Source: Alteromonadaceae bacterium (GTDB taxonomy: Bacteria > Pseudomonadota > Gammaproteobacteria > Enterobacterales > Alteromonadaceae). Taken from it: DNA of 34,686 nucleotides. Within the stretch, counting starts at the first letter, position 1, and every line of letters begins with the position of its first letter. A model generated the notes under the pieces. That model was given only the letters and a program-made list of their open reading frames with translations. It was not told the origin of the DNA and did not search any database. The position numbers and the translations under genes were made by a program. Location of the stretch: the NCBI GenBank assembly GCA_016765535.1, contig JAESPQ010000101.1:1-34686 (forward strand), written 5' to 3'. Positions 8,543 to 34,686 of the stretch are shown here, piece by piece.

Positions 8543-8616
8543 TGTAGGTCGTAGCTTACGTTACATGGATGGTATTATTAGACAATGCAGGAGATGTATA
8601 TTGTCCTGCGGCGACA
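8543..8616. repeat. REP-like element with enlarged loop
   Basis: It starts with TGTAGGTCG and ends near CGACAT, but the loop is filled by a roughly 50-bp module (8558-8608). The module contains GTTACATGGATG and GCAGGA...TCCTGC and recurs at 13642-13690 (inverted) and 34636-34684. This copy is the most diverged of the three. Confidence 0.6.
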
Positions 8617-13548: not shown

Positions 13549-13592
13549 TTACATTTATCTTTTAAAGACAAATAGGGTTGTTGAAGCACATT

Positions 13593-13804
13593 AATTTACA
13601 TGCCTATGTACTTGGTTCAGGTAAACTTGTAGGTTGGGCTTCAGGACAATATGCTCCTGCATTGTCGAATAAGTTACATCCATGTAACGTAGCTCATCAA
13701 TTCATGTCATTTATTCTGCCTTTGACGACATAAATGTCGACCTACAGAATAATTATCGAATTAAATAAGGGCTCCTGAGTTATCTGCATAGGCATGTTAA
13801 TTTA
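13593..13804. repeat. Composite inverted-repeat element, long form
   Basis: The outer terminal repeats are ACATGCCTATG (13598-13608) and CATAGGCATGT (13787-13797), with similarity reaching further in, including TCAGG against CCTGA. Inside is a GTAG-headed REP doublet (13627-13747) ending in CGACCTACAG. The first hairpin of the doublet, GGGCT...AGCTC, has its loop enlarged by a roughly 49-bp module (13642-13690). A shorter copy without the module is at 19332-19492. The right end supplies the stop codon of the minus-strand gene at 13797. Confidence 0.8.
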
Positions 13805-19331: not shown

Positions 19332-19492
19332 AATTAACATGGCTATGTGCTTGGTTCAGGTAAACCTGTTGGTTGGGCTTCTGCCCATCAATCCATATCA
19401 TTTATTCTATATTTGACGACATAAATGTCGACTTACAGAAGGATCGTCGAATTAAATAAAGGCTCCTGAGTTATCTATATAGCCATGTAAAT
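19332..19492. repeat. Composite inverted-repeat element, short form
   Basis: The terminal repeats are ACATGGCTAT (19337-19346 region) and ATAGCCATGT (19479-19488). The inside matches the element at 13593-13804, including the shared segments CTTGGTTCAGGTAAAC and GGCTCCTGAGTTATCT, but lacks the 49-bp loop module. The inner doublet is decayed: GTAG reads GTTG on the left and the right arm reads GACTTACAG. The G/C swap in the terminal repeats relative to the other copy is made on both arms. Confidence 0.78.
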
Positions 19493-33085: not shown

Positions 33086-33483
33086 TAGCACAAAAATTAA
33101 ATTACATTAGCTCTGTTGTACTTAACTGTTGTGCTATGAATAATTGTGGTATGAAATTTTTGTAGTTGGGCTTTAGCCCATCAATATTAACGGCATGAAT
33201 GTCGACCTACAAGGTATTGTATTGTGCTATGAATAATTGTGGTATGAAATTTTTGTAGGATGGGCTTTAGCCCATCAATATTAACGGCATGAATGCCGAC
33301 CTACAAGGTATTGTATTGTGCTATGAATAATTGTGGTATGAAATTTTTGTAGGTTGGGCTTTAGCCCATCAATATTAACGGCATGAATGTCGACCTACAA
33401 GGTATTGTATTTACATTGTTTATTGGGCTAACAACAATAAAAGGGAACATAGCCATTACCTTAATAACTAAAGAGAATATCCA
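33086..33483. other. fliL-fliM intergenic region
   Basis: The 398 bp contain no gene. About 280 bp are the tandem array described separately; the rest is AT-rich leader sequence for fliM. I see no sigma54 match or T-tract terminator here. Confidence 0.7.
33129..33409. repeat. Three tandem 93-94 bp units each carrying a REP doublet
   Basis: The units start at 33129, 33222 and 33316 and are nearly identical. Each has about 31 bp of leader starting TTGTGCTATGAATAATTG, then a 53-54 bp doublet bounded by TTGTAGG and CCTACAA. The doublet has two inner hairpins, GGGCTTTAGCCC and CGGCATGAATGTCG (a perfect CGGCATGAATGCCG in unit 2), so each can fold as a three-way junction. Unit 1 has lost one G (TGTAGTTGGG). 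Confidence 0.9.
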
Positions 33484-34592: not shown

Positions 34593-34686
34593 TTGTAGGT
34601 TGGCCTTTAGGCCATCAATCTATATTTGACGGGCTACGTTACATGGATGTAACTTATTCGACAATGCAGGAGCATATTGTCCTGAA
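34593..34686. repeat. REP doublet with enlarged second hairpin, cut by the window edge
   Basis: It starts TTGTAGGTTGGCC. The first hairpin, GGCCTTTAGGCC, differs from the usual GGGCTTTAGCCC by a paired change. The second hairpin opens with GGGCTACG and then holds the roughly 48-bp module (34636-34684) with the perfect hairpin GTTACATGGATGTAAC (34638-34653). The closing arm lies beyond position 34686. Confidence 0.75.

Follow-up and report, generated by a model that had tools for sequence, protein, structure and literature searches.

A candidate mobile DNA unit of about 48 bp in the tips of REP and other bacterial hairpins

Two kinds of described system come nearest to the DNA unit reported here: REPs that lie inside palindromes (PMC3733652) and insertion sequences that target REPs (PMC1525189), as the accessible parts of these papers describe them. 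Some REP families are nested in this way; in the cases of A. variabilis and H. neapolitanus, the accessible part of PMC3733652 reports that no empty targets were found. In contrast, there are many empty targets for our unit. IS1397, IS621, ISKpn1 and ISPpu9 target REPs at a fixed place in the palindrome (PMC1525189 and PMC8450116, accessible parts). However, these REP-targeting insertion sequences are kilobase-sized and have their own transposase, whereas the unit is 48 bp long and non-coding.

The unit resembles REPs and their RAYT/TnpA-REP systems, as presented in the accessible text of PMC2817692, PMC6006769 and PMC3733652, in being short, intergenic, palindromic, multicopy and non-coding and in its compensatory stem changes, and two RAYT loci carry units in their flanking REPs. 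Unlike REPs, it consists of two hairpins of the same orientation with NGGA loops, has no conserved GTAG tag (GTAG-REPs have GTAG or GTGG directly 5' of the hairpin), keeps a near-constant length of 48 bp and occupies hairpin tips in many different hosts, among them other units like itself. With MITEs it shares non-autonomy, shortness, intergenic position and many copies; however, the terminal inverted repeats and target duplication of MITEs were not seen for the unit and are present in its host mini-element. Subterminal hairpins and the lack of target duplication, both features of IS200/IS605-like single-strand elements, are found in the unit as well.

Two kinds of RNA also look similar. TwoAYGGAY RNA (RF01731; PMC2864571, PMC4333381, accessible parts) has two GGA-loop hairpins and is a proposed CsrA binder, but the second loop of the unit is AGGA and the evidence favours DNA. 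Serial GGA-loop hairpins are shared with the CsrB/RsmZ sRNAs (RF00018). The initial annotation of this DNA knew of no description of the unit, and we found none in the literature searched, which included few subscription papers and preprints. We consider that the block, which measures about 48 bp (47-50 bp in most filled/empty pairs), is probably a mobile but non-autonomous piece of DNA that targets hairpin tips.

Copies of the unit in the window and its source genome

The window analysed here is an entire contig of an Alteromonadaceae bacterium (C101, JAESPQ010000101.1; 34,686 nucleotides, ending at 34686), and its source genome comprises 128 contigs and is 85.8% complete. The initial annotation had described one block recurring within REP hairpins at 8.56, 13.64 and 34.64 kb, and direct reading and BLAST bear this out: all three are twin-hairpin blocks of ~48 bp, those at 13.6 and 34.6 kb being identical and that at 8.56 kb related. 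Searching the source genome by BLAST with the 13.6-kb copy and its REP arms gave E = 1.2e-32 for the copy itself, 5.3e-23 for 34.6 kb and 5.6e-9 for 8.56 kb, among 35 matches in total, which excludes chance as the origin of the three-locus similarity. A covariance model built from the source genome's own copies had 38 matches in that genome at E ≤ 0.05. The relevant features of the window are the following.

8544..8615, plus strand: second REP type, host of copy 1 (GTAGGTCGTAGC...GCGGCGAC), with GTAG and GGA on one strand
8558..8607, plus strand: unit copy 1, about 50 bp, hairpin 1 degenerate (GTTACATGGATGGTAT)
13599..13796, plus strand: mini-element with REP doublet and unit, ends CATGCC...GGCATG, with TTAATTTA at 13591-13598 and 13797-13804
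13629..13700, plus strand: REP hairpin hosting copy 2, GTAGGTTGGGCTTC^AGC.CATCAA, GTAG strand opposite the GGA strand
13643..13690, minus strand: 48-bp unit, copy 2, GGA strand minus, within the first REP hairpin of the doublet
19338..19487, plus strand: the same mini-element without the unit, from sequence and repeat family comparison
19373..19391, plus strand: empty REP hairpin with unfilled unit site, TTGGGCTTCTGCCCATCAA
34595..34686, plus strand: REP doublet hosting copy 3, GTAG at 34595, unit in the tip of the second REP, truncated by the contig end
34636..34683, plus strand: 48-bp unit, copy 3, with hairpin 1 at 34638-34653 (loop TGGA), a linker and hairpin 2 at 34660-34681 (loop AGGA)

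The ends of copy 3 were set from filled and empty pairs of the same REP type, with an ambiguity of 1-2 bp. As the initial annotation had read it, the block is enclosed by the REP stem at both 13.6 and 34.6 kb, where it sits in the first and the second hairpin of its doublet, respectively; the host at 8.56 kb is a different REP. The frames flanking copy 1 are presumably iscU-like and iscA-like. Because the contig stops at 34686, the predicted closure of the stem and CCTACA end beyond it were judged on three sister copies: those on C19 and C63 run on past the break point with both (AAGCCCGACCTACAA), whereas the copy on C42 closes the stem and lacks the CCTAC end (AAGCCCGACAAATAC).

The mini-elements at 13599-13796 and 19338-19487 are one element with CATGCC ends and a REP doublet inside. 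The 19.3-kb element, which had been proposed to show the same site empty, is indeed the empty form of this host: its REP stretch is usually 68 bp long without the unit and 116 bp long where an intact unit is present, with small indels in some copies of either form. At 13591-13804 the host mini-element looks like a transposed element, with long inverted ends (CATGCCTATG...) and the 8-bp repeat TTAATTTA on each side; repeat analysis of the mini-element gave inverted repeat I8 and direct repeats D3 and D8. Elsewhere in the window, 33154-33435 holds a 94-bp REP doublet block in three head-to-tail copies (repeat family D1), between frames that we take to be fliL-like and fliM-like.

On its GGA strand, the unit comprises about 2 bases, hairpin 1 (6-bp stem, loop NGGA), a linker, hairpin 2 (loop AGGA) and 2-3 bases. 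The loops are fixed as ACA-NGGA-TGT and GC-AGGA-GC and change little among copies, while the stems are free in sequence and keep their self-complementarity; some linkers have GTAG or TTAG before hairpin 2 and others do not. The two hairpins noticed in the initial annotation are real and their stems covary. Among 59 copies (57 distinct), 98.4% of pairing cells were paired versus 81.3% in shuffles, and double-sided stem changes numbered 121 versus 29.5 in shuffles and 4-27 with the structure slid, counts that are flattered by an alignment fitted to the structure. Weaker covariation measures were less clear (10 pairs with double changes versus 7.2, and 22 further types versus 19.3, in shuffles). 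Within genome G041, the module was no better conserved than its arms, which is only suggestive as the copies were picked by module.

The source genome is fragmented and several of its contigs end in or near a copy, as an assembly artefact might have it. Nevertheless, filled and empty sites lie inside single contigs, and they also occur in genomes of one or two contigs (G041, G365), so that such an artefact is excluded for these copies and extremely improbable overall. The two-contig genome G365 is rich in units, with 115 model matches.

Filled sites, empty sites and insertion targets

A palindromic element of the source genome that has CGAGTTTAAAAGGCTTA arms and no REP tag also hosts the unit. 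Its 13 distinct copies with both arm patterns, a count from which the C64 copy, which is interrupted, and the weaker C16 and C60 copies are left out, comprise 4 filled (121 bp between fixed points) and 9 empty ones (73 bp), and the difference was 48 bp each time. A relative of the 8.56-kb REP type beside a RAYT gene (L491) forms another exact 48-bp filled/empty pair.

A flank search in the collected loci found 115 filled copies with an empty partner, falling into 29 host-site clusters. The size differences of these pairs were 48 bp (58 pairs), 49 (27), 50 (18), 47 (5), 51 (2), 44 (2) and 46, 43 and 37 (1 each), with 103 of the 115 at 48-50 bp. It should be noted that three clusters contribute 60 of the 115 pairs, and that clusters are nearer to independent events than pairs, though some clusters are perhaps related hosts. 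Of 473 filled flanks, 126 had a partner in a looser version of the search and 120 in a control version, and 353 of the 473 distinct units were without an empty partner among the collected loci. A partner shorter by 47-50 bp was found for 109 of 473 units but for only 4 of 2816 control blocks taken 90, 130 or 300 bp beside units, of which 42 gave any shorter partner.

The unit is not confined to REPs. Among the collected loci, which were mostly fetched for holding units, 473 of 513 distinct copies had no GTAGG within 24 nt before and no CCTAC within 36 nt after. Further palindromes elsewhere often carry the unit at their centre, and units also occur in loops of their own kind, giving nested copies. 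The flank complementarity of 30 out of 81 copies exceeded the 95th percentile of mismatched-flank controls (17 exceeded the 99th), and 51 copies fell below the 95th. Thus, the idea of a nested element in hairpin loops, which the initial annotation had raised for REPs, was correct as to the kind of element but set its target too narrowly: exact 48-bp filled/empty pairs uphold the nesting, whereas exclusive targeting of REPs does not survive the many copies without REP arms. Its other proposal, a long-loop REP variant recombining with the short form, does not account for units that are nearly constant, lie in either orientation and occur in hosts unrelated to each other, although the unit may well be spread by recombination among the copies of a single host.

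Tip and target preferences were tested on 23 sites, after 6 of the 29 clusters with an end ambiguity of at least 4 bp had been dropped. A perfect stem of at least 5 bp closed the loop at the insertion point in 10 of the 23 sites, versus 12% of offset positions and 6% of shuffles, and 13 sites had no such stem; for stems of at least 4 bp, the values were 15 of 23, 28% and 21%. Hosts with the unit in a REP tip include GGGCA^GAAGCCC, GGGCT^TCAGCCC and CGCCGCT^TGCCGCG, and other hosts resemble the unit's own loops, namely GCA^GGAGC (L243, L301), its complement (L180) and CAT^GGATG (L258). A G[A/G]A triplet followed the site in 11 of 23 cases versus 5.4% expected, or in 8 of 20 after hosts with a GAACAA flank were merged, a motif spotted in the same site list that was used for its test. 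IS200/IS605-like elements insert 3' of a fixed tetranucleotide and with a lagging-strand bias; no fixed left flank was seen among the 23 sites. Neither a target duplication nor terminal inverted repeats of the unit were seen, and the end ambiguity was 0-3 bp in 23 of the 29 clusters.

In the source genome, the unit has its GGA strand opposed to GTAG in one REP type and aligned with it in another, and G041 has a 48-bp unit of different sequence, reversed, in REPs close in sequence to that of the window. These opposite orientations in similar REPs suggest separate arrivals of units.

In the reading that we propose, the unit lies in either orientation, without visible target duplication, in DNA hairpin tips, often before G[A/G]A. 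Its hosts are REP hairpins, other palindromic mini-elements and the loops of the unit's own copies, in which units nest and whose NGGA loops are thus probable target sites. Since both loops contain GGA, a unit itself provides two further targets, in keeping with the nesting. Once inside a REP or mini-element, a unit would be copied along with its host. The unit presumably moves as single-stranded DNA, and it may still be moving today.

Template-switch repair of palindromes would preserve Watson-Crick pairing on both strands. An unlikely but serious alternative to insertion by the unit is that it has no transposition of its own and was rarely seeded, then spread by recombination, gene conversion, hairpin template switching and the copying of host mini-elements. 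The weight of three clusters among the pairs, the mobility of the host elements themselves (terminal repeats and target duplication) and the Watson-Crick upkeep of both strands, an outcome of template-switch repair, are consistent with this. However, it does not account for near-constant ends of 48-50 bp in unrelated hosts without shared flanking homology, nor for opposite orientations in REPs of similar sequence.

Loss rather than gain is considerably less probable. If filled sites were ancestral, empty ones would stem from exact deletion of the hairpins by replication slippage or a nuclease, and the T-element holds a unit in several genera, with empty copies found mostly in the source genome. 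On the other hand, the direct repeats of 0-3 bp at the ends in 23 of the 29 clusters offer little for slippage, different units and orientations occur at similar sites, and the REPs described in the accessible parts of PMC6006769 and PMC2817692 are ordinarily empty. We infer that insertion, not loss, made most of the filled/empty pairs.

Structure at the DNA or the RNA level

The CsrA/RsmA consensus fits the NGGA loops of the unit. For this reason, a reading as a portable CsrA/RsmA site was pursued first, in which transcribed NGGA hairpins bind a CsrA dimer and are kept for regulating neighbouring mRNAs or titrating CsrA. The GGA motifs lie in paired hairpin loops 24 or 25 nt apart in 100 of 106 units, and hairpins of the CsrA type with GGA loops generally occur in pairs (PMC4333381, accessible part). 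Furthermore, csrA is present in six of six genomes, an array of twin GGA motifs in the same genus has a weak CsrB score, and copy 1 lies in sense orientation ~35 nt before the iscA-like frame.

However, this reading lost its support with the near-even gene strands and the mismatch counts, and we regard it as rather improbable. Unit placement was taken from 605 loose-regex candidates, 228 of which passed a stem filter, with longest-ORF guesses as gene calls: 44 were sense, 37 antisense, 52 convergent and 32 divergent, the rest (37 overlapping predicted ORFs, others without a gene on one side) being dropped. Selection of the GGA strand as RNA would be expected to give more G-U than A-C mismatches and a sense placement of units. 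Between codirectional genes, there was no gene-strand bias (44 sense vs 37 antisense, p = 0.50). Across 256 modules, 2321 internal cells were Watson-Crick pairs, and the mismatches were 25 G-U, 22 A-C and 40 of other kinds, so that G-U was not above A-C (p = 0.77). A first count of 34 G-U vs 5 A-C had suggested RNA selection, but 28 of those 34 fell on the outermost pair, a position at which the linker often supplies a T, and the excess vanished when internal pairs only were counted and per-source repeats removed. The exact insertion into hairpin tips and the nesting are also left unexplained by CsrA binding.

Rfam gave nothing at gathering score in the window. In 20 loci with or near units, the only GGA-related match up to E = 1 was a sub-threshold CsrB in L279, and the RF01731 covariance model gave no match up to E = 1. 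A CsrB (RF00018) search gave nothing above cut-off in six of six genomes and nothing at all in the source genome. The array in L279:1450-1750 (G092:C37), with the sub-threshold CsrB score, is made up of twin NGGA hairpins that differ in type from those of the unit. One of four genomes yielded a dif-like site, and a hand count there, which relied on an assumed origin and carries no weight here, showed no clear replication-strand bias.

Without G-U/A-C asymmetry and gene-strand bias, the evidence points to a structure kept at the level of DNA rather than RNA. We take it to be maintained by a hairpin-reading enzyme or by template-switch repair, and transcribed copies may have a putative side role as CsrA-binding RNA.

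Candidate enzymes, distribution and significance

Y1-transposase matches numbered 13 in six genomes, and the three genes tested all scored as REP-associated tyrosine transposase. The fetched flanks held units at two of the 13 loci, in both cases inside GTAG REPs, and none at the other 11; GTAG REPs would cluster at such genes anyway. At L491, a RAYT locus of the source genome (frame ~1878 down to 1429), the same REP lies on both sides of the gene, empty upstream (1940-1963) and filled downstream (~1353-1424), with a length difference of 48 bp. The REPs of the second source-genome RAYT (L497) are unfilled. Four units lie within ~0.7 kb at the RAYT locus L496 in G041, and the GTAG REPs that host them are interspersed with unfilled ones. 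These loci tie the unit to REP systems and perhaps make RAYT its putative mover; tentatively, the enzyme could be an HUH transposase of the RAYT/TnpA-REP type. In a Methylobacter MAG (L367:2448-3871), a Y1-transposase-like frame is present in three pieces, and a unit (2877-2911) is located among them.

From L100:1501-1542 onward (G000:C64:51697-53205), ~1.4 kb of DNA with an IS110-type DEDD transposase gene interrupts hairpin 2 of the unit in one palindromic element. The two halves of the element share 2 query bases (1-81 and 80-148); ISPpu9 in REPs is reported to give an AG repeat (PMC8450116, accessible part). The presence of this gene in DNA that splits a hairpin 2 makes IS110-type enzymes a second candidate.

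The unit occurs in marine and other gammaproteobacteria. The source-genome model at E ≤ 0.001 matched 41 of 118 genomes of the family and 22 of 52 genera, and a broader model matched 59 of 369 genomes of the class and 47 of 272 genera, the source genome being included in both. A fixed pattern was found in 30 of the 369 class genomes, with zero for the backwards-pattern control among the rows shown. An exact 20-base pattern occurred in at least 119 stretches of the named collection; among the 80 matches listed, 76 were Gammaproteobacteria by name, 2 unresolved Proteobacteria, 1 Flagellimonas and 1 a Clostridia MAG. Viral contigs had few (5, 12, 2 and 0 stretches for four exact patterns).

The unit may possibly represent a class of mobile DNA of minimal size: a twin hairpin of 48 nt that an HUH (RAYT-like) or other enzyme moves into hairpin tips. 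Its NGGA loop would be both enzyme signal and preferred target, and its nesting would build many-hairpin intergenic clusters in Gammaproteobacteria. If so, insertion would be directed at hairpin tips mainly through recognition of their structure, and nested copies would be a readable record of successive insertions in such clusters. Matched filled and empty REPs at RAYT genes are ready substrates for the question of RAYT function. For motif searches of CsrA sites, the unit is a caution that GGA-loop hairpins may often be mobile DNA.
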